A stretch of 64,000 nucleotides of DNA, from contig CACYWL010000002.1 of the NCBI GenBank assembly GCA_902778055.1, positions 66,269 to 130,268 on the forward strand, in the 5' to 3' direction. How positions within the stretch are numbered: the first letter of the stretch is position 1; each line of letters starts with the position of its first letter. The position numbers and the translations under genes were made by a program. The notes under the pieces were generated by a model. The model was not told the origin of the DNA. It worked only from the letters and a program-made list of their open reading frames with translations, and searched no databases. Origin of the DNA: an uncultured Eubacteriales bacterium. GTDB lineage: Bacteria; Bacillota; Clostridia; Christensenellales; Aristaeellaceae. This document shows positions 14,488 to 47,965 of this stretch, in pieces.

Positions 14488-15684
14488 TCAGTCCGCCGGA
14501 TAGTAGGTTCCGTACACGAATTCATGAATTGCCTGGGCATGCTTCTTCAGATTGTATTTGATCACGGAGGAACCGTTATGCGTCGTGTAGGAATAGGAGT
14601 GATCCATCGGCACGCGCATCTGTTCGAAAAGGGATTCCCCGGAGGTCATCTGGGTCAGCGCCGGCGCCAGGGAGGTTGCCAGATCCCAGAGCGTCTGGAA
14701 ATTCATGTTCGTATCCGCGTAGGATACCGCCACGTCGATCAGATCCATCAGCGTGCTGAAATCCAGATTGGACGTCACCTGCTGCAGCAGCAGATCCAGC
14801 AGATGGCGCTGCCGGTCGGTCCGGTTGAAGTCGTTTTCCCCGGCCAGGGAACGGGTTCTGGCATACATGACCGCCTGCACCCCGTCCAGATGCTGCACCC
14901 CGGCCTTGACCTCCAGCGGCGTTCTCTCGCCCTTGGCCTTGTTGTCATAGGCCGGCGGATGCTCCTTCAGGTACTTGTTGATGTACCAGGCCTCCCCCTT
15001 GGTCAGCTCGATGTCGATCCCGCCCAGCGCGTCGATGATGGAAGCCAGGCCGTTGAAGTTGATGGCCACGTAGTTTTCGATGTTCATCTGGAAGTTCCGG
15101 TTGATCGTCCGCATGGCCAGCGCCGCGCCGCTGCGAACCTTCTCCTGGGTGGTTCCCTTTTTGACCCGGTTGTTTCCGTAGGCAAAGGAGTTGTTGATCT
15201 TGGTCTGATTCTTGTATCCGGGAATCGGCACCAGCGAATCCCGGAGGATGGAGGTCATTTTGATCGCGCCGGTGTCCCGGTTGATGGAAACGATGATCTG
15301 GGTATCCCCGCGGCCCAGGATCTCCTGAGGATCCTTGCTCCGGGTATCCACCCCGATCAGCAGGATATTGATCACGTTTTCCGGAAGATTCGGGTTTTTG
15401 TCCAGGGAGTCCGGATCAATGCCGGTGTCGTCCTCCTCGACATCCTCCTCGATCAGCTCATCCAGCTTCTGCTGCTCCTCTTCGGTCAGAATATAGGTTT
15501 CCCCCGTATCCTCATCCACGAAGACATCGTCCGCCGCCGGCTCCCCGGAGCCGGATTCCTGCTCCGCTTCGGGAGCGGCCTCCTCCGTGATTTCCTCGAT
15601 CAGCAGATCGTCGTCCTCCCCGGCCATGCTCGCGGCGGGGATCAGAAGGCAGCAAGCCAGCAGCAGGGATATCAGCTTTTTCAT
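14488..15684 (-). CDS. LytR-CpsA-Psr (LCP) family protein
   Basis: 398 residues. LCP proteins transfer undecaprenyl-linked glycopolymers to peptidoglycan outside the cell. An N-terminal signal sequence is followed by a long Asp/Glu-rich stretch (about 22-105). The LCP domain begins at INILLIGVDTRS and contains SINRDTGAIKMTSILRDS, the KINNSFAYG segment, the GGIDIELTKG region and the Arg-rich YARTRSLAGENDFNRTDRQ. These include the usual catalytic Asp and Arg residues. GGAGG lies seven bases before the ATG, which overlaps the previous stop (ATGA). The signal sequence may act as a membrane anchor, since LCP proteins are normally tethered. Confidence 0.92.
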   Translation of the reverse strand: MKKLISLLLACCLLIPAASMAGEDDDLLIEEITEEAAPEAEQESGSGEPAADDVFVDEDTGETYILTEEEQQKLDELIEEDVEEDDTGIDPDSLDKNPNLPENVINILLIGVDTRSKDPQEILGRGDTQIIVSINRDTGAIKMTSILRDSLVPIPGYKNQTKINNSFAYGNNRVKKGTTQEKVRSGAALAMRTINRNFQMNIENYVAINFNGLASIIDALGGIDIELTKGEAWYINKYLKEHPPAYDNKAKGERTPLEVKAGVQHLDGVQAVMYARTRSLAGENDFNRTDRQRHLLDLLLQQVTSNLDFSTLMDLIDVAVSYADTNMNFQTLWDLATSLAPALTQMTSGESLFEQMRVPMDHSYSYTTHNGSSVIKYNLKKHAQAIHEFVYGTYYPAD

Positions 15685-16518: not shown

Positions 16519-17940
16519 CTATTCCTCCCAGGCCAGGCCGCAGAAATCCGCCATCAGCCGGACCAGTTCCTTCGCGTGCCCCTCGGTGTCCGCTTCGGCA
16601 AAGATCCGGACCCGCGGCTCCGTGCCGGAAAAGCGGACGATCACCCAGCCGCCCTCCAGGTAGACCTTGCATCCGTCGGCATAGCTCACACGCTCCGTCT
16701 TCTCCCGGAAGGTCGGCAGCTGCCGGTCCTCCAGAATCTGCTTCTGGATTCTGGCCCTGGCTTCCTCCGTCAGCGCCCAGTCATACTCCGCCATGTGCAG
16801 CTCCCCGAAGCGCTCGTACAGGTCCCGGACCAGGACGCTCAGCGGCTTTCCGCATACGCTCAGCATCTCCACCAGCAGGCTGGCGGCATACAGCCCGTCC
16901 TTTCCGGAGATATGGCCCCGGACGGTCAGGCCGCCGGAGCTTTCTCCGCCGATCAGGGCCTCGTGCGCGTCCATGCCCGCGGAGATGTGCTTGAAGCCCA
17001 CCGGCACCTCCACGCATTCCTGCCCGTAGGCCGCGGCGATCCGGTCCAGCATGTGCGTGGTCGCGATGTTCCGCACCACGGCGCCGCGCCAGCCCTTGTG
17101 CTCCAGCAGATAATAGTACAGCAGGGAAAGAATCTCATTGGCGTTGATATAATTTCCCCGCTCGTCAATGATTCCCAGCCGGTCCGCGTCGCCGTCCGTC
17201 GCGATCCCCACGTCCGCCCGGTGCTCCTTCACCGCGTACTGCAGATCCACCAGCGTCTCCGGGTTCGGGGCCGGAAGGTGCCGGCCGAAGAAGGCATCAT
17301 GCCGGTCGTTGATCACGTCCACATCGCATCGGGCCGTATAAAGGATGGTCAGCAGTCCCGTCAGGCTGACGCCGAACATGGGATCCAGCACCACCCGGAG
17401 GCGGCGCTTTCTGATCGCGTCCATATCCACCTGGCCCATGATGGAATCCAGGTAGACATCCCGGGGATCGATTTTGACGATCATGCCCGTTTCCAGGGCC
17501 TTTTCAAAGTCCAGGGACCGGATCGAAGCCGGATCGATCCGGTTCGCCTCCTCCTGGATCGCCTCCGTGTATTCCTCGGATGCGTCCCGGCCGCCCCGGG
17601 TGAACAGCTTGATGCCGTTGTAGATCGCCGGGTTGTGGCTGGCCGTCACCATCGCTCCGTAGGGCAGGCCGAGCCGCTTGACGGTAAACATGACCTGCGG
17701 CGTCGGGCAGGAGATATTCACGAAGCGTACCTTCACGCCCTCGCCCGCCATCACCTCGCAGAACCAGATCAGCGCCTCCCGGCTCAGGAACCGGCGGTCG
17801 TATCCCGCGCAGATTCCTTCCTCCGCGTTTCCTTCCCGCTTCATGCGCCGCGCCAGCGCGGCGGCAATCAGCCGGATGTTCTCCCTGGTAAACCCGTCGC
17901 CGATCACGGCGCGCCATCCGCCCGTTCCAAACCTGATCAT
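16519..17940 (-). CDS. phosphoglucomutase/phosphomannomutase family protein
   Basis: 473 residues of the alpha-D-phosphohexomutase superfamily, which interconverts sugar 1- and 6-phosphates. FGTGGWRA opens the protein. The phosphoserine loop TASHNPAIYNG is near residues 98-108, the metal loop DGDADRLG lies mid-protein, the sugar-binding GGESSGG is about 330, and the phosphate-binding RFSGTEPRVRI closes domain 4. All four domains are complete. It lies 117 bases after the GH94 gene, where it would convert the sugar 1-phosphate released by phosphorolysis. Glucose, mannose or GlcNAc specificity cannot be read from the motifs. Confidence 0.92.
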   Translation of the reverse strand: MIRFGTGGWRAVIGDGFTRENIRLIAAALARRMKREGNAEEGICAGYDRRFLSREALIWFCEVMAGEGVKVRFVNISCPTPQVMFTVKRLGLPYGAMVTASHNPAIYNGIKLFTRGGRDASEEYTEAIQEEANRIDPASIRSLDFEKALETGMIVKIDPRDVYLDSIMGQVDMDAIRKRRLRVVLDPMFGVSLTGLLTILYTARCDVDVINDRHDAFFGRHLPAPNPETLVDLQYAVKEHRADVGIATDGDADRLGIIDERGNYINANEILSLLYYYLLEHKGWRGAVVRNIATTHMLDRIAAAYGQECVEVPVGFKHISAGMDAHEALIGGESSGGLTVRGHISGKDGLYAASLLVEMLSVCGKPLSVLVRDLYERFGELHMAEYDWALTEEARARIQKQILEDRQLPTFREKTERVSYADGCKVYLEGGWVIVRFSGTEPRVRIFAEADTEGHAKELVRLMADFCGLAWEE

Positions 17941-18057
17941 GCGTCCTCCCCCTTTCGTGTCTTCCGTCCGGGCGCCGGAGCGGGACGCTTTCCGATCCCC
18001 TCTCCCCGGCCGCTCCGGAAGCCTTCGCTCCGCGGAATAAATGCCGTCGGCTCCTGC

Positions 18058-20454
18058 TTATCCCAGGATAACCTCCACCTCGTGGATCCCCTCCGTGAAC
18101 ACCGGAATGCTTTCCGCCTCCCCGCCGTCCACGCGGAGGCATTTCACGCCCTTCTCCGCATGCGCCGGGTTGCTGACCCTGATCCGGTATTCCGCGCCGC
18201 GCCAGCGGCGGACCGCCTCAAAGCCGTCCCACTCCGCCGGGATGCAGGGATCCACGGTCAGCCGGTCAAACTCCGGCCGGATGCCCAGCATGTACCGGGT
18301 CGCCGCGTAATAGGCCCATCCGGAGGAGCCGGTCATGAAGGGATGCCTCGCCCGGCCATGGGCGGTGTGATCCCGTCCCATGATGAACTGACAGTAGGTA
18401 TAGGGCTCCGCCTGCCGGATTTCCATGAGGTCATTCTGGTTTTCCGGAAGCAGCGCGTCATAGAACTTCATCGCCCGGCTTCCGCGCCCCAGCAGGCACT
18501 CCGCCACCCAGGCCCAGGGGTTCGGATGGCTGAAGACCGCGCCGTTCTCCTTGATGCCGGGATAGACCCGGGTCACAAAGCCGATGCTGTCGTCCACCGT
18601 GACAAAGGAGGGGGCGTTCAGCATCAGACCGTAGGGGGTATACAGCCATTCGTCCACGGCGTCCATGCAGGAGAGGCCCTGCTCCCGGGTCGCCGCGCCG
18701 GAGGCCACCGCCCAGGCATTGCTTTCCAGGTGAACCTTGCCCTCCTTCGCCGTATGGGATCCGATGGGAACGCCGCCGGCGGTGAAGCCCCGCAGGAACC
18801 ATTCTCCGTCCCACAGCACCTGCCGGCAGGTTTCCGCCAGCCGGTCCCGCTTCTCCGTATACACCCGGACGTCCTCCTCCCGGCCCAGCGCTTTCGCCGT
18901 GTCCAGGAAATGGCCGGTGGCCCACACCAGCAGGAAGGCCACCATGGCGCTCTCGCCGCCGCCCAGGTTCAGGCAATCGTTCCAGTCCGCCCGCAGCCCC
19001 TTGGTGATGCCGTGGGCGCCGATCTGGCCGTAGGAAAAATCCAGCGCCGCCTTCATGTGGTTCCAGACCGTGTCCTCGCCCCCGTCCGCATAGGGCACCG
19101 TCCGGTCCAGGAAGCTCAGATCCCCGCTCTCCCGGACATTTTCCGCAATCGCCGGAATCAGCCACAGCGCGTCGTCCGCGCAGGCGTCCCGGATTCCGTG
19201 GAGCATGCTCTTCGGATCCGACCGCGGGATGACCGTCGGGCTTTTGAAGCCGCTTTCCTCCGGCTGCTCCAGGACCGCCGGGTCAAACAGATGCAGCCCG
19301 TATCCCTCGCGCATCTGCCCGTGCAGCAGCTGCAGAATCCGCTTCTCGCACATGTCCGGCTCGGCCTGGGGAATGCACATCGCGTCCTGTGCCGTATCCC
19401 GGTAGCCCAGGCCGGTGCGTCCGCCCACTTCAATGAAGGAGGAGAAGCGGGAGAAAAGGACATTGACCTCGCTCTGATAGAGGTTCCAGATATTCAGGGA
19501 GCGATTCATGTTCTCATGGGGCGTCTTCACCTGCAGCGCACCCAGCTTCTCCTCCCAGAAGGCCCGCAGCTCCCGGAAGGCCCGGTCCGTCCCCGCCTCG
19601 TCATAGCGTTTCCGCGCCTGCTCCGCCGCGCTGCCGCGGCCTGTCCCCAGGTAGAACAGCACGCGGGCCTCCTCTCCGGGAGCCAGAGTCAGCTTCTTCT
19701 GCAGGGCGCCGACCGGATTTCCGCCCAGCTCCGTCCTGCCGTTCAGCCTTCCCTGCTCAACGCCCAGGGGATTCCGCTCCGTGCGGTAGGGGCCGATGAA
19801 GCTTTCCCTGACGCCGTCAAAGCTGTCCGGTTCGAAGTTCCCGGCAAAGAACTGGAAGGCGCCGGGCTCGTAATGCAGCTCGCAGACCGCCGCGCCGTTT
19901 TCGTAATGGGAGCCCGCCGCGTAAAGGCTCATCTGGAAGTTCTGGTTGTCCATTTCGATCTCATGGAAGGAGAACTCCACGTAGCCGAAGACGCTGATCT
20001 CCCGTGTCCGGTCCGACTCGTTCCGGACGCGCACGTCAAAAATCTCCACCGGGTCGGTCTTCGGATCCCCCTCCCGGGGAATGAACAGCGTCTGACTTGC
20101 CCGGATCCCCTGATGGGCGCATTCATAAACAGAATAGCTCAGCCCGTGCCTCGCCCGGTACTCCGCCCGGTCCAGGGGCAGCCCCACCGGCTGCCAGCTG
20201 ACGGACCAGTACGCGCCGTTTTCCTCATCCCGGAGGTAGACGTAATGCCCCGGCCAGTCCATGGGCACCCCGTTGGGCCGGAAGCGCGTGATCCGGTGGT
20301 GCTCCGGGCTGTCCAGCCAGGCGTATCCTCCCGCCGTATGCGAAATCACCGCGCCCATCCGCTGCGTACCCAGATAGTTGGTCATGGACTGGGGAACGTC
20401 CACCCTGTCCAGCACATATTCCCGGGCCCCGTCGTCAAAGTATCCGTACCGCAT
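18058..20454 (-). CDS. GH94 disaccharide phosphorylase, chitobiose phosphorylase-like
   Basis: 798 residues from the ATG at 20454, preceded by GGAGGAGG. The earlier in-frame start would overlap the upstream gene by about 85 bases and adds no family sequence. GH94 enzymes split beta-linked disaccharides with phosphate to a sugar 1-phosphate and a free sugar. From memory the sequence follows the Vibrio N,N'-diacetylchitobiose phosphorylase most closely: the MRYGYFDD start, NYLGT, IEVGGRTGLGYRDTAQDA, PYADGGE, and GLRADWNDCLNLGGGESA with the general acid in DWND (490-493). Cellobionic-acid phosphorylases belong to the same branch, so the substrate is not certain. No signal peptide, hence cytosolic. 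It starts 19 bases after the fusion protein and precedes a phosphohexomutase. Confidence 0.88.
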   Translation of the reverse strand: MRYGYFDDGAREYVLDRVDVPQSMTNYLGTQRMGAVISHTAGGYAWLDSPEHHRITRFRPNGVPMDWPGHYVYLRDEENGAYWSVSWQPVGLPLDRAEYRARHGLSYSVYECAHQGIRASQTLFIPREGDPKTDPVEIFDVRVRNESDRTREISVFGYVEFSFHEIEMDNQNFQMSLYAAGSHYENGAAVCELHYEPGAFQFFAGNFEPDSFDGVRESFIGPYRTERNPLGVEQGRLNGRTELGGNPVGALQKKLTLAPGEEARVLFYLGTGRGSAAEQARKRYDEAGTDRAFRELRAFWEEKLGALQVKTPHENMNRSLNIWNLYQSEVNVLFSRFSSFIEVGGRTGLGYRDTAQDAMCIPQAEPDMCEKRILQLLHGQMREGYGLHLFDPAVLEQPEESGFKSPTVIPRSDPKSMLHGIRDACADDALWLIPAIAENVRESGDLSFLDRTVPYADGGEDTVWNHMKAALDFSYGQIGAHGITKGLRADWNDCLNLGGGESAMVAFLLVWATGHFLDTAKALGREEDVRVYTEKRDRLAETCRQVLWDGEWFLRGFTAGGVPIGSHTAKEGKVHLESNAWAVASGAATREQGLSCMDAVDEWLYTPYGLMLNAPSFVTVDDSIGFVTRVYPGIKENGAVFSHPNPWAWVAECLLGRGSRAMKFYDALLPENQNDLMEIRQAEPYTYCQFIMGRDHTAHGRARHPFMTGSSGWAYYAATRYMLGIRPEFDRLTVDPCIPAEWDGFEAVRRWRGAEYRIRVSNPAHAEKGVKCLRVDGGEAESIPVFTEGIHEVEVILG

Positions 20455-20473
20455 GCGCCTTTCCTCCTCCGGT

Positions 20474-22573
20474 TTACTGAATCTCCCAGGTGCCGACCTG
20501 ATCGCTGAAGCCGATGCCCATGACCTCGCAGGTCTCCCTGGCCGCGGTCTTCCCGTCATATTTTCCGATCTGATTCAGCTGTTTTCCCATGAAGACAACC
20601 ACCGCGGTCTGCCCTCCGTCCAGGTCGCAGGCCTGCTTCAGCCCCGCCGCCTGGCACAGGAAGGCCAGCTGCGGCATGGTTACGCCCTCGCTCCGGCTGC
20701 CCAGCCTTCCCTCGCACATGATGTCCACGTAATGCCCCGGTTCCACCATTCCGAAGGCGTGGCGGGGATTCTTGGCCCGGCTCTTCGCCGGATCCTGCAC
20801 CCATGCGCTCAGTTCTCCGTCCCGGATCAGGTAGGGGCCGAAGCTCTGGACCATGTAGGCCCCGCGGTCCAGGTATTCCTGCGCGCTCAGCTCCATGCTG
20901 GCGTGCACGTCCACGGATCCGTCCTCATAGAAGGCCAGCGTATCCAGGTTCGGGAAGAACCTGGTTTCCAGGGTATCGTAGCGGTCGTCGAAATAGACCT
21001 CCCCGTTCCGGATCTCCACGCCCACCGGATGACCGTTCTTGCTGCCCACCCTGTAGGTATAGTAGTCTCCGTTGCAGGCAAAGACCAGACGGTTGGCCAC
21101 GGCGTTGACCGCCGCGTCCACGCGGCTCTTTTTCCCGACCGCCTTTTCCGGCGTGTATTCCACGTTGACGATTTTCTCCCCGGCTTCCAGGTCGCACCGA
21201 ATATCGGTCTCAAACCAGGTCAGCGGAAGGCTCCCGTCAAATTTCCGGGTGATGACCACCCTCACCGTCCCGTTGATGAACACGTAGTGTCCCCGGGCGT
21301 CGTCGCTCCAGATGAATTCTCCCTCATCCAGATAGCCTTTTTCGTTCAGCTCCGGCAATCCGGGGATCTCCGCCAGGGTCCATTCCGGTTCCTCTTCCCT
21401 TGCGGCGGTTTCCGTCAGGTCCTCCAGCGGAATGTTTTCCAGCAGGTCATCATGAAGCAGGTCCGGTCCGACCAGGCTTTCCGCCAGCCCGAAGGTATTG
21501 TTCCGGTACTTGATGCCCTCCTGGTAAACGCTGCGCTTCTGGTCGTCCTGGGTCTTGTGGTAGAGGTAGGCGTAGTACGCCAGCCCCATGCCGGTCCTTC
21601 CGCCCAGCTTCTCCATCGGCTTCGTCCAGTCAAAAACCGTCTGGTCCCCGCTGTTTCCGTAAAGGTGGAGATACAGTTTTTTCACCTGCCACCGGTCCGC
21701 GGCGGCATCAAAGGCTTTCCTGCACGCGTCCGCCAGCATCATCCGCTGGCCGTTTCCGCCTTCCCCTTCCGCGTCCGGGCCAACCAGCACCTCCGGCCTG
21801 GTTTTCCCGAGCACGTCCGACAGCCAGGAAACCAGCGTGCTTTCCCCGTTCCGGGCATCGATGGTTTTATAGGCCGCCTTCAGGCTGCCGGCCTTCGCCG
21901 TTTTGAAGTCTCCGATGATCGGATAATTCCGGTATCCCATGGACCAGAGCCCGTTGAGAAACTCGCTCCGCCGGGTGGTGTTGGCATAGCTCATCAGCGC
22001 CACCGCCACCGTCCGCTCCTGCTCCGCCGCGTACCAGGGAATCGCTCCCCCCAGATACAGCAGCTCCTCCTCCGGATGCGCCACGGCGAAAAGGATATCC
22101 GCCTTCTCCGGCGTGCTTTCCCACCGCTGCACCCAGCCGGGAAGCCGTCCTTCCCCGAAGACGTACACCTCGTTGAAGCCCAGGGTCTGCTTCTTCTCCC
22201 CCAGCGCGTAAACCCGGACCTCCTCGGCCCCGTCCAGCGCGTAGAAGGCATGGACATATTCATTCCCGGTGCAGACCGTCTCCCATTCGCCGCCCTGTTT
22301 CACCTGGATCTCATAGCTCTCCGGCTTTCTCTGAAAGCAGAGGTACAGCCCGTAGATCGGCTCCCCGCCCCCGACGGTCAGGGTCGGATTTTTCATGCTC
22401 TTGCTTTCCTGGTAGGTGGTGAATTTCCGGTCCGTCAGGTTTTTGGGGTTTTTCGTGCCGCTCAGGTTCAGCACGCAGGAGGAAGTGATCTCCAGCGCGT
22501 CCTCCGCGGACGCTCCTCCCCGGATCAGGAAGATGAACGCCGCGGTCAGCAGCAGAACGAATATTTTCTTCAT
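20474..22573 (-). CDS. secreted fusion: degenerate PIG-L deacetylase domain plus phosphodiester glycosidase domain
   Basis: 699 residues from the ATG at 22573, where a signal peptide starts (cleavage near ASA|ED). Three parts: a beta-rich discoidin-like region (25-145), a PIG-L/LmbE fold (155-370), and a C-terminal NAGPA-type (DUF2233) domain (about 410-699) with SFGPYLIRDGEL and LDGGQTAVVVFMG. NAGPA enzymes remove GlcNAc from phosphodiester caps. Parts one and two are paralogous to the protein encoded just upstream (shared NTTRRSE and LNGLW). The metal motif AHPDDE has become AHPEEE (166 onward), and the second His pair (YGHGQH upstream) has become GGNGQR (272-277). The PIG-L part is therefore probably inactive. 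The C-terminal domain is paralogous to the protein encoded at 46.9 kb. Confidence 0.82.
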   Translation of the reverse strand: MKKIFVLLLTAAFIFLIRGGASAEDALEITSSCVLNLSGTKNPKNLTDRKFTTYQESKSMKNPTLTVGGGEPIYGLYLCFQRKPESYEIQVKQGGEWETVCTGNEYVHAFYALDGAEEVRVYALGEKKQTLGFNEVYVFGEGRLPGWVQRWESTPEKADILFAVAHPEEELLYLGGAIPWYAAEQERTVAVALMSYANTTRRSEFLNGLWSMGYRNYPIIGDFKTAKAGSLKAAYKTIDARNGESTLVSWLSDVLGKTRPEVLVGPDAEGEGGNGQRMMLADACRKAFDAAADRWQVKKLYLHLYGNSGDQTVFDWTKPMEKLGGRTGMGLAYYAYLYHKTQDDQKRSVYQEGIKYRNNTFGLAESLVGPDLLHDDLLENIPLEDLTETAAREEEPEWTLAEIPGLPELNEKGYLDEGEFIWSDDARGHYVFINGTVRVVITRKFDGSLPLTWFETDIRCDLEAGEKIVNVEYTPEKAVGKKSRVDAAVNAVANRLVFACNGDYYTYRVGSKNGHPVGVEIRNGEVYFDDRYDTLETRFFPNLDTLAFYEDGSVDVHASMELSAQEYLDRGAYMVQSFGPYLIRDGELSAWVQDPAKSRAKNPRHAFGMVEPGHYVDIMCEGRLGSRSEGVTMPQLAFLCQAAGLKQACDLDGGQTAVVVFMGKQLNQIGKYDGKTAARETCEVMGIGFSDQVGTWEIQ

Positions 22574-22589
22574 CGGCAGGCTTTTCTCC

Positions 22590-23825
22590 TCATTCAATGT
22601 TTTCCAGGAAATCCGTGTGGGTCTCGTCCGGCCCGACCTCGCTGGCATAAAGGCCGAAGGTGGTGTTGGAGTAGGCCTCCCCTGTGGTCTCCACGCTGAG
22701 CTTCTGCCACTTTTTATTGATCTTGACCTCCGCTCCCTCCTGGGTCTTGTGCAGCGCGTAGGCCTCGCTGGCCGCCTCGATGCCGGTCTTTCCGCCCAGG
22801 CTTTCCAGCGGCACGTTCCAGTCAAACCGCGTCTGGTTGGTTTCGTCCCCGTACAGGTGAACATACAGCTTCCGAACCTGCCATGTCCCCCAGGCCGCGG
22901 CGCTCTCCGGATATTTTTCCGGGTTGGCAGCCAGCTCATACCCCTGGATCGCGGCATCCGCCATCATCTTGTGCTGGCCGTGGCCGTATTCCCCGTTCAG
23001 GTCATGGGTCACGACGACCTCCGGCTGATGCCTGCGGTACAGCTCGGTCACCCACTTCAGCACCTTGTCCTTTCCCAGCTTCCCGTAGGCGTCCTTCGCG
23101 CTTTTGCTGTAGGCGTCCCGGAATCCGCCGAACTCCGGATAGTGCCGGACGCCGAGGGCCCAAAGCCCGTTCAGCGCCTCGCTTCTGCGGGTCGTATTGC
23201 TCCAGGAAAGATAGGCCACCACGACCCGCTTCCCCTTTTCCGCCGCGTAGGTCGGAATCGCGCCGCCCAGGAAGATCAGCTCATCGTCCGGATGCGCGGA
23301 GAAGAACAGAATATCCGCCTTTTCCTCCGTCGGTTCCCATCTCTGCACCCAGTCCGGGATTTCTCCCTCCCCGAATACAAACACCTCGTTGAAGCCGATC
23401 TTCTGGCTTTTCTTTCCCGCGGCGAAGACGCGGACGGCCTTTTCCCCGTTCAGCGCGTAGAAGGAATGCTGGAACCGGGTCTCCCCCTCCGCCAGGGTCA
23501 CCCAGTCCTCCTTCTTCTCCTCCGAGGACTCCGCGTTTTCTCTCAGCACCTGGATTTCATAGCTTTCCGGCATCTGCCGCCAGCAGAGATACAGCCCGTG
23601 CATCGGCGTTTCGGAGCTGATGGAGATCCAGGGATTCCGAATCTTGTTGCTCTCCCAGTAGGAGGTATACTTCCCGTCCGTCATCAGGCTCTCGTTCCAT
23701 TTGGTCGAGCACAGCCGAAAGGCGCATGCGCCGGTCAGATCCGGAGCCTCCGCCGCCAGGGCCGCCCCGGCCAGCAGCAGGACCGCTGCGGCCAGCAGCA
23801 CCGCGGGAATCATCCTTTTTTTCAT
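22590..23825 (-). CDS. secreted PIG-L/LmbE-type de-N-acetylase with N-terminal discoidin-like region
   Basis: 411 residues with an N-terminal signal peptide (MKKRMIPAVLLAAAVLLLAG, cleavage near ALA). Residues about 30-155 look like a carbohydrate-binding discoidin fold. The PIG-L domain follows with an intact metal site: AHPDDE (177-182) and YGHGQH (280-285), matching the catalytic Asp, metal ligands and histidines of GlcNAc-type deacetylases such as MshB. The protein should act outside the membrane on an N-acetylated sugar or an analogue. It lies 16 bases before its fused paralogue and is probably the first gene of the amino-sugar cluster. The 91-base gap to rimI shows no clear promoter, so it may also be reached by transcription through ribU-tsaE-rimI. 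Confidence 0.85.
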   Translation of the reverse strand: MKKRMIPAVLLAAAVLLLAGAALAAEAPDLTGACAFRLCSTKWNESLMTDGKYTSYWESNKIRNPWISISSETPMHGLYLCWRQMPESYEIQVLRENAESSEEKKEDWVTLAEGETRFQHSFYALNGEKAVRVFAAGKKSQKIGFNEVFVFGEGEIPDWVQRWEPTEEKADILFFSAHPDDELIFLGGAIPTYAAEKGKRVVVAYLSWSNTTRRSEALNGLWALGVRHYPEFGGFRDAYSKSAKDAYGKLGKDKVLKWVTELYRRHQPEVVVTHDLNGEYGHGQHKMMADAAIQGYELAANPEKYPESAAAWGTWQVRKLYVHLYGDETNQTRFDWNVPLESLGGKTGIEAASEAYALHKTQEGAEVKINKKWQKLSVETTGEAYSNTTFGLYASEVGPDETHTDFLENIE

Positions 23826-23916: not shown

Positions 23917-24420
23917 TCAGTCCTTCTCTTCCGGCGCCACCGGGGTTTCCTCGAAATCCGGATCCGCCGGAGGGAGATGCTCGCAGACCATCAGGAAGGC
24001 ATCCTCCCCGTTGTCCTCATAATAGCGCTTCCGTTTCCCGATGGAAACGAATCCCGCGCTCCGGTAAAGCTGCTGCGCCCTGAGGTTGCTGACCCGGACC
24101 TCCAGATCCGCCCATCCGGCTCCCAGGTTGCTGACATACTGCATCAGCGCCGCCAGCAGCCTGCGTCCCCAGCCCTTTCCCCGTTCGCTTTCCGCGACGG
24201 CGATGTTGGTGATATGGCACTCGTCCATCACCACCCACGCGCCGGCATATCCGAGGATTTCGCCGTCCTTCTCCAGGACAAGGTAACGGGCGACCGCGTT
24301 TTTCTCCACCTCCCGGCGGAAGCTCTGCTCGCTCCAGGGGCGGGCAAAGGTAGCCGCCTCCAGGGCAGCCACCTGCCTCACATCCCGGTACTGCATCCGC
24401 CGGATTTCAGCTTCAGCCAT
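23917..24420 (-). CDS. rimI: ribosomal-protein-alanine N-acetyltransferase
   Basis: 167 residues from the ATG at 24420. A GNAT acetyltransferase of the RimI group, which acetylates the N-terminus of a ribosomal protein. It shows CHITNIAVAESERGKGWG with the acetyl-CoA loop, the ALMQYV helix, LEVRVSNLRAQQLYRSAGF and the RKRYYEDNGEDAFLM ending. GGAGGAAG precedes the start, and the ATG overlaps the end of tsaE by eight bases. The pairing with tsaE (and usually tsaB) is common in Bacillota. A C-terminal acidic tail of about 20 residues is extra. Confidence 0.92.
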   Translation of the reverse strand: MAEAEIRRMQYRDVRQVAALEAATFARPWSEQSFRREVEKNAVARYLVLEKDGEILGYAGAWVVMDECHITNIAVAESERGKGWGRRLLAALMQYVSNLGAGWADLEVRVSNLRAQQLYRSAGFVSIGKRKRYYEDNGEDAFLMVCEHLPPADPDFEETPVAPEEKD

Positions 24421-24889
24421 GCGCCTCTTCCTCCGGTTTCTCCGTCCCGCCGTCAAAGGGCGGGATCCGGCGGAACTCCCCGTGCCTCTGAACCCGGAAG
24501 GCCCGCCGGTTTTCTCCCTCCGGCAGGATCTCGATCATCATGAATTTCTCCGGGAGCGCGTCCGGGCATCGGCCCGGCCATTCCACCAGCGCCACGCCGT
24601 CTCCGCCCAGATATTCCTCCATGCCCAGCTCGTAAAGCTCCTCTTCGCTCTCCAGCCTGTACCAGTCAAAATGATACAGGGGGATCCTTCCGCTGGTATA
24701 GACGTTCAGAATGGTAAAGCTGGGGCTGGTCACCGTTTCCTCCACGCCGAGTCCCCGGGCAATGCCGCGGGCCAGCTCGCTCTTGCCCGCGCCCAGCGGC
24801 CCCTCCAGCAGGATCACATCCCCGGGGCGCACCCCTTCCGCCAGGCGTTCTCCCAGCTTCCGGGTCTCCTCCGCGCTTTCTGAAATCAT
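24413..24889 (-). CDS. tsaE: tRNA threonylcarbamoyladenosine biosynthesis ATPase TsaE
   Basis: 158 residues from the ATG at 24889. The longer frame would run back into ribU. TsaE drives the TsaB-TsaD complex that makes t6A37 in tRNA. It has Walker A GPLGAGKSE, the TSPSFTILNVY segment and LYHFDWYRLES with the metal-binding residues. The Walker threonine is Ser here, which is tolerated. AGGAAAG precedes the start, five bases after ribU. tsaB is not adjacent but lies 0.9 kb upstream in a separate unit (see findings). Confidence 0.93.
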   Translation of the reverse strand: MISESAEETRKLGERLAEGVRPGDVILLEGPLGAGKSELARGIARGLGVEETVTSPSFTILNVYTSGRIPLYHFDWYRLESEEELYELGMEEYLGGDGVALVEWPGRCPDALPEKFMMIEILPEGENRRAFRVQRHGEFRRIPPFDGGTEKPEEEAHG

Positions 24890-24894
24890 CAATT

Positions 24895-25494
24895 TTACTT
24901 TCCTTTCCCGTGCAGCAGGGGTGACACCCGCTTGTACAGCATCGCCGTCAGAAGGCTGATCACCAGGCCCTTGATCAGATTGAAGGGCGCCGTAATCATC
25001 AGGAGCAGCTTCCATTCGCTGTCCACGCCTCCCCAGTGAGCGGCCGCCACCAGCTCCTCCATGCTCATATGGAACGCGCCCATATAGAAGGGCAGCATGA
25101 TCCACTTGTTCACAAACACGCTGATCACCACCGCGCAGATCATCCCGCAGAGCATGCCGAGGAGAGCGGTTCTCCGGGTCTTGTTCCGCTGATAGATCAG
25201 CCCGGCCGGCAGGATCATCGCCAGGCCCATGATAAAATCCGCCAGCTCGCCCACACCTGCCGACGAGGAGTGGGTCAGCCCGATCAGGCTTTTCAGCCCG
25301 AGGATGAGGACACCGGCGACCGGGCCCATGCTGAAGGCGCCGATCAGCACCGGAATATTGGAGAGATCCAGCTTGTAAAAGGGCATTCCCAGCGGGATCT
25401 CGATCAGGAACAGCACCGACGCGACGGCCGCCAGAACGGCGATCCGGGCAAGGTTCGGGGTTGTAAGCAGCTTGTTTTTTGCAGCGTTGGACAT
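24895..25494 (-). CDS. ribU: ECF riboflavin transporter S component
   Basis: 199 residues from the ATG at 25494, preceded by GGAGGAGG. Five to six membrane segments. The RibU signatures are present: FYKLDLSNIPVLIGAFSMGP (L1 region), SSSAGVGELADFIMG and APFNLIKG. It imports riboflavin with a shared ECF energy module encoded elsewhere. The FMN riboswitch immediately upstream confirms the substrate. First gene of ribU-tsaE-rimI. Confidence 0.95.
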   Translation of the reverse strand: MSNAAKNKLLTTPNLARIAVLAAVASVLFLIEIPLGMPFYKLDLSNIPVLIGAFSMGPVAGVLILGLKSLIGLTHSSSAGVGELADFIMGLAMILPAGLIYQRNKTRRTALLGMLCGMICAVVISVFVNKWIMLPFYMGAFHMSMEELVAAAHWGGVDSEWKLLLMITAPFNLIKGLVISLLTAMLYKRVSPLLHGKGK

Positions 25495-25520
25495 GGGATA
25501 CCTCCTCCGTAAAACAGGCA

Positions 25521-25552
25521 CGCCCCTGAAGCTGAAAAGCTGATCAGGGGCG
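25521..25552 (-). promoter_or_regulatory. candidate terminator/sequestering hairpin of the FMN riboswitch
   Basis: Between the aptamer and ribU an inverted repeat (CGCCCCTGA with TCAGGGGCG) ends a few bases before TTTTAC and the ribU ribosome site. It fits an expression platform. The alternative fold with the aptamer was not computed. Confidence 0.55.
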
Positions 25553-25578
25553 GTCATACGAAAAAAGTATCGCCGTTG

Positions 25579-25701
25579 GCTCTTCTTTCATCCAGACTGT
25601 AACTGTCGGCTCCGGAATCACACCGGGATCGGCCTCTCCGCAAGGAAGAGGTTCGCGGGCTGTACCGCCGGTCGGGATTTTCACCCTGCCCTGAAGAAGC
25701 T
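25579..25701 (-). ncRNA. FMN riboswitch (RFN element)
   Basis: The highly conserved RFN blocks read on the minus strand: CTTCAGGGCAGGGTGAAA, then CCGACCGGCGGTACAGCCCGC, a variable hairpin (25636-25660), then GGTGTGATTCCGGAGCCGAC and AGTTACAGTCTGGATGAAAG. All are in the right order and spacing. It senses FMN and represses riboflavin uptake and synthesis genes. Here it heads ribU-tsaE-rimI. Confidence 0.97.
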
Positions 25702-25746
25702 TCATGAGAACGCGCATTTAGTCAAAGCGTTCGCTTTGCAGGAAGC

Positions 25747-25775
25747 ATCATAGCATCCGCTCTTTTCCCTGTCAA
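25747..25775 (-). promoter_or_regulatory. promoter driving the FMN riboswitch-ribU unit
   Basis: A consensus TTGACA (25770-25775), 17-base spacer, and TATGAT (25747-25752) with an upstream TGC. The start near 25740 leaves about 40 bases before the aptamer. Confidence 0.8.
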
Positions 25776-25811
25776 GGAGAAAACGCCCCGCGCTCTGCTT
25801 TTTCATTCCGG

Positions 25812-26519
25812 CTACACCCTGCGCATCGCATCCAGCAGCTTTTTGTTTTTTTCGGCGTTCGGCGGCCGCAGGTAGGTCTCCTTCAGGTGCAGATAATCCA
25901 CTGCGGCGCCGATCCCTTTCCGGGCCGCCAGCAGCGCGACGGCGGAGGGGCGGAGAAAGCAGCAGCCCGGTTCGGCCAAAAGTGCGTTTTCCCCGAGAAT
26001 CTCCCGGATCCTTTCCCGGTGAACCCGCATTCCGTCCCCGGTAAACAGCCACGGTCCCTGATGGAGCGCCCTGACGGCCTCCAGATAATCCTCCAGCCGG
26101 ACCGCCCGGTCCTCCGTCAGTCTTTCTCCCCGCCGGAAGCAGGCGCCGTAGATCTGGCCCGCCCTGGCATCCTGCATGGGACAGATCAGCCCGTCCCAGT
26201 CCCTTCTCCCGCAGCTCTCCGCCAGGGCCTCGAGCGCGTTGACCGGGATGCAGGGTTTACCGCTCCCGTGCGCCAGTCCCTTCACCGTCGCGACGCCGAT
26301 CCGCACCCCCGTGAAGCTGCCCGGCCCGACCGTCACCGCCAGGGCGTCGACATCCGCCAGGGACATCCCCGCGCTCTCCAGGCATCTTTCCGTCATGGGC
26401 ATCAGGCTGACGCTGTGGGTGTTTTTATTCTGCGCCGCGGCCTCGCTCAGCACGGTTTCTCCGTCCAGCACCGCCGCTCCGCACACGGGCCCGGAGGTAT
26501 CAATTGCAAGTATTCTCAT
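25812..26519 (-). CDS. tsaB: tRNA threonylcarbamoyladenosine biosynthesis protein TsaB
   Basis: 235 residues. The scaffold subunit of the t6A37 synthesis complex, with an ASKHA fold. It opens MRILAIDTSGP, has the NTHSVSLMPM segment and the PGSFTGVRIGVATVKGLAHG core, and ends in YLR-PPNAE, a common TsaB tail. It follows galK by 24 bases and is probably expressed from the promoter upstream of the solute-binding protein. It is separated from tsaE and rimI by ribU and its promoter. Confidence 0.93.
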   Translation of the reverse strand: MRILAIDTSGPVCGAAVLDGETVLSEAAAQNKNTHSVSLMPMTERCLESAGMSLADVDALAVTVGPGSFTGVRIGVATVKGLAHGSGKPCIPVNALEALAESCGRRDWDGLICPMQDARAGQIYGACFRRGERLTEDRAVRLEDYLEAVRALHQGPWLFTGDGMRVHRERIREILGENALLAEPGCCFLRPSAVALLAARKGIGAAVDYLHLKETYLRPPNAEKNKKLLDAMRRV

Positions 26520-26543
26520 GCTCTGTCCTTCTGTCCCCGGCGC

Positions 26544-27824
26544 TTATCCCAGCTCCAGCTGATCCGCGCCCACCGGCCGGATGTTCAGCACCCTGCAGGC
26601 ATCCTTTCCGAAGGCCTCCTCCATCAGCTTCACGAAATGGTCCGTCCTCTCCCGCGGGACAAAGTTCAGCGTTGTTCCGGCGAAGCCGCCTCCGTGGATT
26701 CTCCAGGCCCCGCTTCCCGCCAGCAGCCGCTCGGCCAGGCAGAGCGCGAGGCTCAGGCTCTGATCCTCGTTGGTGGCGTAGATGTTCTGCAGGTACATGT
26801 AGGAGGACCGTCCGCTCTCCCGGATCAGATGGAGGAAATCTCCCATCCGATCCTCCTTCAGCGCGGCCACCTGCGCCGGAACCCGGTCATTTTCCGCGAC
26901 AAAATGGAAGGCCCGCAGAATCGCCCGGTCGGAAACCTGCTTCCGCAGCTTCGGCAGATTCGTCATCAGGTCCGTCTCACTGATTCCCCGCAGAACCTCC
27001 TGCCCGAGGCACGCCGCCACCTCCCGCATTTCCTTCGGGATGGCCGCGTAGTGATCCGTCAGGTTCGCGTGGCTCCCGCCCGTGGCGACGACCACCAGCG
27101 CGTACCCCTTCTTTGCAAAATCATACTGAAGGGCTTCCACCTTCGGATTCTTTTCGTCCTCGAAATCCACCGTCACCAGCCCGCCCGCGGCGCTGGCCAT
27201 CTGGTCCAGCAGCCCGGAGGGCTTGCCGAAATAGAGGTTTTCCGCCCGCCGGCTGATCTGGGCCCGCTCCGTGAAGGGCATGTCAAACCGGTTGTACAGC
27301 CCGTCGAAAACCGCTGTCAGCATGACCTCCAGTGCGGCGGAGCTGGAAAGGCCGCTGCCTCCGGCGACGGTGGAGGTGACGCAGGCGTCAAACCCGCCGA
27401 TTCGGTATCCGGCCCGCTTCATGCCGTCCGCCACGCCGCGGATCAGGCTTGCCGTCGTGCCCTCCTCCCCGGCATGGACATCCGTGTCGGAAAGATCCAT
27501 TTCGATCGGAGCATATCCCTCGCTGTGAAAGCGCACGATCCCGTCCTTCCGGGGCGCGGCCGCGCAGAGCGCGTCCAGGTTGATGCTGGCGGCCAGCACC
27601 CGTCCCCGGTTATGGTCCGTATGGTTTCCTCCGATCTCCGTCCGTCCCGGCGCGCTGAACAGCCGGACTCCGTCCGTCCCTTCAAAGGTTTCCTCAAAGG
27701 TTTTCAGCAGCGTGGCATAGCGCTCCTTCTGCGCCTGAAGATTCGCCGCGCCGTACAGCTTCGTCAGATGCGCTTCCGTTCCGGGGGTATTCAGTTTTTC
27801 CAGCCATTTTTCTGTCAGGTTCAT
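26544..27824 (-). CDS. galK: galactokinase
   Basis: 426 residues of the GHMP kinase family, ATP-dependent phosphorylation of galactose in the Leloir pathway. The N-terminal galactose motif reads GRTEIGGNHTDHN (a known clostridial form of the GR-NL-GEHTDY motif). The ATP-binding GGSGLSSSAALE lies about 140-151 and the C-terminal GGFAGTT motif is intact. The protein is about 35 residues longer than E. coli GalK, mainly at the N-terminus. It lies 55 bases after the binding-protein gene, suggesting a sugar-uptake link. No galT or galE is in the window. Confidence 0.93.
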   Translation of the reverse strand: MNLTEKWLEKLNTPGTEAHLTKLYGAANLQAQKERYATLLKTFEETFEGTDGVRLFSAPGRTEIGGNHTDHNRGRVLAASINLDALCAAAPRKDGIVRFHSEGYAPIEMDLSDTDVHAGEEGTTASLIRGVADGMKRAGYRIGGFDACVTSTVAGGSGLSSSAALEVMLTAVFDGLYNRFDMPFTERAQISRRAENLYFGKPSGLLDQMASAAGGLVTVDFEDEKNPKVEALQYDFAKKGYALVVVATGGSHANLTDHYAAIPKEMREVAACLGQEVLRGISETDLMTNLPKLRKQVSDRAILRAFHFVAENDRVPAQVAALKEDRMGDFLHLIRESGRSSYMYLQNIYATNEDQSLSLALCLAERLLAGSGAWRIHGGGFAGTTLNFVPRERTDHFVKLMEEAFGKDACRVLNIRPVGADQLELG

Positions 27825-27879
27825 TTTCTTTTCCTTCCTGTTTCTCCGCTGATCCGGTTCGTCCGAAATGTCCGCTTTC

Positions 27880-29391
27880 TCATTCCTGGAAGTACTTCTG
27901 CCACAGGGCGGCCATCCGGTTCAGCCCCCTGCGCTCCGCCTCCTGCACAAATTCCGTCCAGCTGGCGTCGTTCAGCTCCGTATCGCCCGTGACGAATTCC
28001 GCCATTCTTTTCTCTGCCCAGGGAGCGATTTCCACCTGCAGGGCTGCAACCTCCGCCCGATCCTCCTCGGTCAGGTAAACCGGGGGGAAGGACGGCAGCG
28101 TGTACTGCTGCACCCTCGACATGTCCTCAATCAGGCTCTGGGTGGAAGCGTCCTGGTATTTCTGCTGGAAATCCTTCTTCACGATTCCCGGCGCAATGCC
28201 GCCGTCGCTCAGGGTCGCTCCCGGCAGGATGTCGCTGGCCACGGTCTGAAGGTCATCCATCCATTCCCAGGTCCCGTCCTCGGTCCAGCGGTATTCCTTC
28301 CCTTCCTCGCCGGCCTGCATCAGGATGCTTCCCGCTTCCGTGTACAGGCTGTTGACCCAGGTCAGCATCCTCTCCGGCTCCCTGCAGGTGCGGGTCAGCG
28401 CGAAGGTGCCCTTGGTCAGCGGGCCGAGCAGATCCCGGTAGACCCGCTTTCCGCTGTATTCCAGGGGCGTCAGGGCGGTATACTGATCCATCGCTTCCGA
28501 AGGCACCACCGTCAGCGGCGAGTTGGACAGGAACATTCCGTAGGGAATGGCGGCCTTGCTGTCCGTGATCTGCCGCAGGGGATCCGCCGTGGAAAAGCTC
28601 GTATGCCCCAGCAGCTCCTCCTCCCACAGCCCGTGGAGCCATTCCAGGAAGGCCCGGTTCTCCTCCGAGGTCAGCGAGGACGTTACCTTTCCGTCCTGCA
28701 GCCGGAGGTAATAGTCATTGTCCGTGATCCCGAAGGCATGCCCCAGGAAGCGCAGATCCCACATTCCCAGCACGCTGAGCGGAATTTCATCCGCCCGCCC
28801 GTTTCGGTTCGGGTCCCCCTCCCGGAAGGCGCGGAGCACCTCCGTCAGCTCCTCGGCCGTGGAGGGCATTTCCTTTTTCAGGGTGTTCAGCCAGCTCCGG
28901 TTGATCCAGATCAGGTTGTTCGGCGCCAGCTCGTTGATGCAGGGCAGGGCGCGGATCGTCCCGTCCGGCAGCGTCACGGCCGCCATCCACGCCGGATTGG
29001 CCTCCAGAAGGCTCCAGAGATCCGGCGCGTATTCCGCCAGCAGGGGCTTCAGATCCAGGAGGATTCCGCTTTCCGCCATCCTCATCGTTTCCTCGTCCGT
29101 CAGCCCGGCCTTGAACAGCACATCCGGAAGGTCCGTTCCCTCCGCGATCTCCTTTTTTCTCTCGGTCCACTGCTTCTCGTCCGTTCTCTGGCGGAACTCA
29201 AAGCTGATTCCCGTCTTCTCCTGCATGCGCTGAAAAAAAAGATTGGTTTCCCAGTCATGATTCGCGCTGCCGCCGTCAAAGCCCTCCATGACGAAATCCG
29301 GAGCCTTCAGCTGATCCGATTCCGCCGCTCCTCCGGCCAGCGCCGCGGCCAGAAGCAGTACGGCCGTCAGTATTCCCGCGATTCTGCGCAT
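27880..29391 (-). CDS. extracellular solute-binding protein, no partner permease nearby
   Basis: 503 residues with a signal peptide (hydrophobic 4-20, cleavage near GGA-AES). It resembles the large carbohydrate-binding proteins of the Lpl/YtcQ type (ABC family 1): FFQRMQEKTGISFEFR, DLPDVLFKAG, PLTKGTFALTRTCREPERM and the WTEDGTWEWM stretch. No lipobox cysteine is present, which is unusual for a Gram-positive binding protein. The ligand is unknown, but the adjacent galK hints at a sugar. It has its own strong promoter. Confidence 0.85.
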   Translation of the reverse strand: MRRIAGILTAVLLLAAALAGGAAESDQLKAPDFVMEGFDGGSANHDWETNLFFQRMQEKTGISFEFRQRTDEKQWTERKKEIAEGTDLPDVLFKAGLTDEETMRMAESGILLDLKPLLAEYAPDLWSLLEANPAWMAAVTLPDGTIRALPCINELAPNNLIWINRSWLNTLKKEMPSTAEELTEVLRAFREGDPNRNGRADEIPLSVLGMWDLRFLGHAFGITDNDYYLRLQDGKVTSSLTSEENRAFLEWLHGLWEEELLGHTSFSTADPLRQITDSKAAIPYGMFLSNSPLTVVPSEAMDQYTALTPLEYSGKRVYRDLLGPLTKGTFALTRTCREPERMLTWVNSLYTEAGSILMQAGEEGKEYRWTEDGTWEWMDDLQTVASDILPGATLSDGGIAPGIVKKDFQQKYQDASTQSLIEDMSRVQQYTLPSFPPVYLTEEDRAEVAALQVEIAPWAEKRMAEFVTGDTELNDASWTEFVQEAERRGLNRMAALWQKYFQE

Positions 29392-46918: not shown

Positions 46919-47965
46919 CTACCAGGGATCCTCCGGCGCGGCGACCAGGGCGCTGGTTCCGACGCCGAGAATCTCCGCCGTTCTTCTGGAGGAAAGATTC
47001 CGCGGCTTTTCATCCATCTTGCACAGCTGATGCCCCATGAAAACGATGGTGGCCGTCTGTCCTCCGTCGAGGTTGAAGGCCGTCCGGCATCCCTTTTCCA
47101 GCAGCTTCTCCGCCAGGAAGGAGATCCCGTCGCCCTTGCTCCTCTTCTTCCAGCTGGAGCGCCCCTCCAGCATCATGAACCAGTAATGCCCCTTTTCCGC
47201 CATTCCGACGGCCACGCGCTCCGCGCTGCTCTTTCCGTACTGGTCCAGGGCCGCCGTGTTCAGCTCTCCGTCCCGGATCAGCCACGGTCCGAAGGCGAGC
47301 ACATCCCGCGCCCCCATCTCCAGATACTCCTCCGCGGTCTTCTCGTCGCTGTCGAACACCTGCATGTCCCCGTCCGGGAAAATCGCCAGCGTGTCCAGGT
47401 TCGGAAACTTCTTTGCGCCCTTCTTCCAGGTTTTATCCGACCAGATTTTTCCCTCCCGGATAACAATGCCCGTCCGCGTCTTGTTCACATACCTGTGCCA
47501 GGCATAGTCCGAGCTGACGGCGATCACGGTCTGTTTCATCCGGGCCAGCTTGTAGGGATACTCCTGCTTCCGCATCCATTTTTCCGGATCCACCGGAATC
47601 ATGTGCGGAAACTCTCCGCCCTCCGCGCACCGAATCTCCGCCTCGTACCAGGTGCGCAGGGGCTTCTCCTGGCTGATCCTGCGGATTTCCACCCAGAGGG
47701 TATCGCTGCAGTAGCGCCAGAGGCCTTTCTCCGGGTCCTCGTAAACGAATTCCCCCTCGTCCAGGAAGCCTTCGTCGTTCAGCGCGGGAAAGTCCTGCGC
47801 CCCGCCATCCTCCTCGGCGTTTTCCGCAGCTTCCGCTTCCGCGGTCGCCGCTTCTTCGGCCTCCGGGGCTTCATCCGCGCCCGTCTCCGCCTCCCCGGCC
47901 GGGGCGGCGGCAAACAGAAATACCGCCGCCAGCAGGGTCAGCGCGCCCGCTCTCCATTTTTTCAT
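46919..47965 (-). CDS. secreted NAGPA-type phosphodiester glycosidase domain protein
   Basis: 348 residues with a signal peptide (hydrophobic 8-24, cleavage near AEA). A 35-residue Glu/Ala-rich linker follows. The rest is a DUF2233/NAGPA domain: LAFGPWLIRDGEL (about 215), MAEKGHYWFMMLEGR, and AFNLDGGQTATIVFMG near residue 305. The domain that removes GlcNAc-1-phosphodiester caps has this fold. The DGG motif ends QT instead of the common GSS. It is paralogous to the C-terminal half of the fusion protein at 20.5-22.6 kb, including the lead-in DEGFLDEGEF. It follows purC by 32 bases and is probably co-transcribed, with no obvious link to purine synthesis. Confidence 0.82.
   Translation of the reverse strand: MKKWRAGALTLLAAVFLFAAAPAGEAETGADEAPEAEEAATAEAEAAENAEEDGGAQDFPALNDEGFLDEGEFVYEDPEKGLWRYCSDTLWVEIRRISQEKPLRTWYEAEIRCAEGGEFPHMIPVDPEKWMRKQEYPYKLARMKQTVIAVSSDYAWHRYVNKTRTGIVIREGKIWSDKTWKKGAKKFPNLDTLAIFPDGDMQVFDSDEKTAEEYLEMGARDVLAFGPWLIRDGELNTAALDQYGKSSAERVAVGMAEKGHYWFMMLEGRSSWKKRSKGDGISFLAEKLLEKGCRTAFNLDGGQTATIVFMGHQLCKMDEKPRNLSSRRTAEILGVGTSALVAAPEDPW

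Follow-up and report, generated by a model that had tools for sequence, protein, structure and literature searches.

A four-gene amino-sugar-related cluster of an uncultured clostridial genome probably consists of two independent gene pairs

Four closely spaced genes in the genome of an uncultured Eubacteriales bacterium were identified as two independent units, namely a pair encoding a predicted N,N'-diacetylchitobiose phosphorylase (ChbP) of family GH94 and a phosphohexomutase (module A) and a pair encoding a PIG-L deacetylase and a PIG-L/NAGPA fusion protein (module B). In the window (the whole 64,000-nucleotide stretch of DNA that was analysed), the four ORFs lie on the minus strand in the order PIG-L (22590-23825), fusion (20474-22573), GH94 (18058-20454) and mutase (16519-17940) and are separated by 16, 19 and 117 bases, respectively. 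The original prediction had described this layout of four genes in one direction with small gaps correctly, but its main proposal, that all four constitute one dedicated amino-sugar system, is not supported by gene-neighbourhood comparisons, in which ChbP or the mutase was near PIG-L/NAGPA in none of 78 other loci. The pathway idea is half right: both pairs are real and their union is not. The explanation that we regard as likely is that the modules are separate in function and adjoin each other in this genome.

Both GH94 domains are present in the product of 18058-20454 (PF06165, 243 bits; PF17167, 546 bits). Its nearest solved relative is the chitobiose phosphorylase of Vibrio proteolyticus (VpChbP; PDB 1v7v), which scored 1029 bits, the next entry scoring 497, and the two proteins group together in a 45-row clade with a local support of 100. 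The surroundings of the active site, including the positions D492, R343, R349, D350, W490, V631, E637, H644, T709 and G710 of VpChbP, are identical at all 25 positions checked, whereas other GH94 clades differ; the roles of these residues were taken partly from the comparison in PMC5309861 and otherwise from general background on GH94 enzymes. Score, clade and active site thus agree with the earlier placement of this protein closest to chitobiose phosphorylase, and the predicted activity is the phosphorolysis of N,N'-diacetylchitobiose. A cellobiose-type identity was rejected because of the clade and the active site, and the score against the solved cellobionic acid phosphorylase was far lower (208 bits). 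PDB 8bou, which is titled N,N'-diacetylchitobiose phosphorylase, was rejected as a ChbP reference because it belongs to another GH94 clade with different site residues, including those at V631 and H644; its title may be a misnomer, the sequence lying outside the ChbP clade.

The mutase (16519-17940) contains complete alpha-D-phosphohexomutase domains I-IV, with all four PGM/PMM Pfam domains above cut-off, and was rightly recognized as a phosphohexomutase. Its best matches among the Pfam and NCBIfam models are GlmM-like, but it scored below the equivalog cut-offs for both archaeal GlmM (304.6 bits; cut-off, 439) and bacterial glmM (165 bits; cut-off, 447.6), and its assignment as a GlmM phosphoglucosamine mutase by curated model was therefore rejected. 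Judging from gene context, it probably acts on GlcNAc-1-phosphate. A mutase gene adjoins the ChbP-type GH94 gene in 17 of 18 loci of the family, the sole exception stopping at a contig edge, and lies ≤1.5 kb from ChbP in 21 of the 26 genus loci examined. Elsewhere in the phylum, it was found within 1.5 kb at all seven loci whose GH94 is 55-59% identical and at none of the 13 loci with 42-44% identity. Both genes of module A evolve under purifying selection, with a dN/dS of about 0.16-0.22. In relatives, the module is usually flanked by a carbohydrate ABC importer, a histidine kinase, a second binding protein and an AraC-type response regulator, and nagA is located near it in the loci of three relatives. 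In the window's genome, NagA is encoded elsewhere, and no orthologue of the ChbP importer was found (best identity, 33%).

The first protein of module B (22590-23825) consists of a signal peptide, an F5/8-type-C domain (amino acids about 25-155) and an intact PIG-L domain, which had been predicted and is detected by Pfam (PF02585, 57.7 bits). The catalytic residues H178, D180, D181, H282 and H285 are retained, and motif alignment places them in HPDDE and HDLNGEYGHGQH, i.e. the HPDDE...HGQH type. In the AlphaFold model (pLDDT, 80.1), the best fold match is MshB (Z, 21.1), and the N-terminal part matches CBM32 (Z, 11.3). According to predicted structures, an F5/8-type-C (CBM32-like) domain is present at the N-terminus of both secreted proteins, a feature absent from the original prediction.

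The second protein (20474-22573) was expected to be a fusion of PIG-L and a phosphodiester glycosidase, and its C-terminal part was confirmed as a phosphodiester-glycosidase domain: amino acids 495-669 match NAGPA (PF09992) with 64.7 bits against a cut-off of 25 bits, the family motifs NPRHAFGM, CEGRL and DLDGGQTAV are retained in the NAGPA/DUF2233 domain (20477-21361, minus strand), and the top fold matches of this domain are 3ohg and vertebrate NAGPA. Cleavage of a GlcNAc-1-phosphodiester is the predicted reaction of the fusion. The PIG-L half (21419-22102, minus strand), which follows the F5/8-type-C domain, was not detected by Pfam and has degenerate motifs, HPEEE...NGQR (H166-P-E-E-E and N274/R277 in the alignment) against HPDDE...HGQH. 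In MshB, the altered positions provide metal ligands, catalytic base and second-motif histidines, and this half should therefore not deacetylate. Given the loss of both motifs, the idea that the fusion contributes another functional deacetylase was rejected, and on its residues the PIG-L half is a pseudo-deacetylase domain. This domain is under purifying selection, with a dN/dS of about 0.11-0.20 compared with 0.08-0.19 for the intact PIG-L domain; because the constraint is about equally strong, it is probably still folded and competent for binding. Among the three domains of the fusion, the NAGPA domain has the lowest dN.

In total, 78 module B loci were obtained by scanning named genomes with an alignment of the fusion. 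Nearly all of them are in assemblies titled Clostridia or Clostridiales, mostly from the ruminant gut, and neither GH94 nor the mutase was found within 8 kb of module B in any of the 78. A sample of 397 genomes from the rest of the phylum contained no full-length fusion match, the PIG-L and NAGPA halves being present only separately, and the fusion thus looks restricted to its own family. The native context of the pair in the window (23917-29391, minus strand) contains rimI, tsaE, a RibU ECF transporter with an FMN riboswitch, tsaB, a galactokinase-like GHMP kinase and a solute-binding protein, and this gene order is conserved in relatives: the pair follows rimI in 28 of the 78 loci, generally within a conserved block that also includes ftsZ, galK, tsaE, tsaB and a solute-binding protein gene, and module B is thus located behind ftsZ-galK-tsaE-tsaB-rimI. 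In each of the 28 rimI-linked loci, a single intact PIG-L is accompanied by a single NAGPA, the two being packaged as one fused protein (10 loci), as separate proteins (6 loci) or as an intact PIG-L and a fusion of an inactive PIG-L with NAGPA (12 loci), the window being an additional case of the last type. PIG-L and NAGPA therefore look like a selected pair. In the whole set, including the window, 15 of 17 altered fusions adjoin an intact single PIG-L (the exceptions are L125 and L128), and by the locus maps no intact fusion does so. In a PIG-L phylogeny, the altered fusions from this locus group in one clade (support, 100/100), whose sister is the clade of single PIG-Ls and intact fusions. 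This pattern fits a history in which a fused gene was duplicated and each copy then lost a different function, and the locus would be a clear-cut natural case of such complementary loss.

The pseudo-PIG-L domain in a fusion adjacent to an intact PIG-L and the rule of one PIG-L and one NAGPA in three packagings are new here. We know of no functional link between the PIG-L and NAGPA families. A search of open-licence papers yielded nothing on a combination of PIG-L with NAGPA/DUF2233, and module B is, as far as this literature was searched, an undescribed variant.

The reactions of the two modules may be pictured as follows, with homology, active-site states, gene orders and constraint as observations from which we infer the substrates, the reaction order, secretion and the specificity of the mutase. 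The phosphorolysis of chitobiose is standard biochemistry: module A would act inside the cell, where GH94 would use phosphate to split imported N,N'-diacetylchitobiose into GlcNAc-1-phosphate and GlcNAc, and the neighbouring mutase would convert GlcNAc-1-phosphate to GlcNAc-6-phosphate for the NagA encoded elsewhere. Module B would be secreted, providing a single intact PIG-L deacetylase and a single NAGPA phosphodiester glycosidase, each on a carbohydrate-binding-type module; on one shared surface or extracellular N-acetylhexosaminyl-phosphodiester glycan, they would remove an acetyl group and cleave a sugar-1-phosphodiester. An ancestral fused enzyme would have been duplicated in the lineage, one copy then losing NAGPA and the other retaining NAGPA and a folded PIG-L domain but losing deacetylase catalysis. 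We put forward only tentatively, as a reading that is rather doubtful in its full form, that PIG-L and NAGPA perform two steps on a single undescribed secreted substrate, with one active site for each step per locus, and that in this genus the pseudo-PIG-L domain serves for docking or substrate binding, pairing NAGPA with the separate deacetylase. The rule of one active PIG-L and one NAGPA, observed at 28 loci in three packagings, provides comparative evidence for joint action, and the pair points to an uncharacterized glycan of the N-acetylhexosaminyl-phosphodiester type in or near Clostridia of the rumen and gut.

An alternative that is compatible with two separate modules and has a little less than an even chance is that the pair edits a phosphate-linked glycopolymer of the cell's own envelope rather than feeding on a foreign glycan. 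In many genomes, the pair is located beside rimI-tsaE-tsaB-ftsZ, with no polysaccharide-utilization genes there, and this position among core genes leans towards the cell's own wall polymer. The window's genome also contains 11 NAGPA genes, and an LCP glycopolymer transferase is encoded at 14488-15684; however, the LCP gene is not beside the pair in the mapped relatives, and F5/8- or CBM32-like modules also occur frequently on enzymes directed at foreign glycans.

The junction of the two modules (20455-20473, minus strand) comprises 19 bases with the ribosome-binding-site-like sequence GGAGGAGG before the ATG of GH94. When 45 genomes of the genus were searched with 1.2 kb of sequence spanning the fusion-GH94 joint, an end-to-end match was obtained only in the window's genome, and elsewhere the halves matched separately. 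The expectation that the genes would travel together in related genomes held for PIG-L with NAGPA and for GH94 with the mutase, but not for the union of the four. ChbP is present in 33 of the 45 genomes and in seven of the 10 that encode a close orthologue of the fusion, and is therefore not enriched with the fusion. One genome (G026) contains the PIG-L/fusion pair and lacks a ChbP-type GH94, and in three others (G091, G066 and G112) ChbP is present but far from the pair. In the genome carrying the nearest GH94 relative (G133), the whole of module A is found on the same contig as ribU-tsaE-tsaB-rimI-PIG-L-fusion and immediately upstream of it, about 10 kb from the fusion. Closeness of the modules is thus not unique to the window's genome, and a local rearrangement in the lineage is the likely source of the adjacency. 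No terminator-like site was found in the intergenic gaps of the cluster, and this, together with the 19-base gap and the Shine-Dalgarno-like sequence, suggests co-transcription in the window's genome, in which the modules may have become functionally coupled recently.

A single pathway, in which a GlcNAc-phosphodiester glycan trimmed by the secreted PIG-L and NAGPA releases a disaccharide for import, and GH94 and the mutase recycle GlcNAc-1-phosphate, is improbable. It would account for the shared strand and the tight, terminator-free gaps, and all four activities plausibly concern N-acetylhexosamines; against it stand the absence of co-travel in the 78 loci, the restriction of the junction to one genome and the lack of ChbP enrichment, and in addition NAGPA would yield a monosaccharide whereas ChbP requires GlcNAc-GlcNAc, and the cluster contains no chitinase or hexosaminidase. 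Tight gene spacing in a single genome, as this cluster cautions, need not mean a pathway. A metagenome assembly error at the junction is very unlikely, for although the sequence comes from a draft assembly of 52 contigs and the junction was seen in none of the other genomes searched, the site lies inside a 155-kb contig without an N run and keeps a good ribosome-binding site, and in G133 a single contig carries both modules close to the same dnaE neighbourhood.

Several other features were observed in the window and in related loci. The FMN riboswitch (25576-25702) is located upstream of the RibU-type ECF transporter, which is set between tsaE and tsaB, whereas in relatives RibU precedes tsaE or is missing from the tsaE-tsaB block. 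Another stand-alone secreted NAGPA protein is encoded at 46919-47965 of the window, and five NAGPA genes, interleaved with those for leucine-rich-repeat, RCC1-repeat and DUF6273 proteins, occupy about 10 kb of contig C3 of the same genome (L242, 5352-15621; about 145.9-156.1 kb of the contig). Stand-alone PIG-Ls of another branch lie directly 3' of an ispH-S1 fusion gene in several relatives (L172, L176, L177 and L178). Contig C37 of the same genome (L237, 7783-15846) carries what appears, by eye and from protein starts, to be a peptidoglycan-recycling cluster with DUF1343/NamZ-like, ABC importer, BadF-type sugar kinase, MurQ-like etherase and serine hydrolase genes, the importer alone having been identified by comparison.

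Compared with known systems, module A resembles the VC0611-VC0612 type of Vibrio, in which the combination of a GH94 chitobiose phosphorylase and an adjoining phosphohexomutase is already known (PMC5209532, PMC12282291), and in relatives the resemblance extends to an ABC importer and two-component regulator next to the pair. In the window, the pair is separated from the importer and regulator, and the kinase (VC0614) and hexosaminidase (VC0613) are not alongside. Module A thus carries the known Vibrio pathway over to gut Clostridia, which is of lesser significance than the PIG-L/NAGPA pair. The intact PIG-L protein shares its fold and the HPDDE...H..H site with the MshB/diacetylchitobiose deacetylase family but differs in being apparently secreted and in carrying a carbohydrate-binding-type module; the aligned identity is only about 25%, and the substrate therefore cannot be transferred. 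The fusion has the C-terminal domain fold and motifs in common with human and bacterial NAGPA/DUF2233 proteins (the uncovering enzyme and BACOVA_00430, 3ohg, respectively), but here this domain is joined to an F5/8 module and to a PIG-L domain that lacks the catalytic residues.
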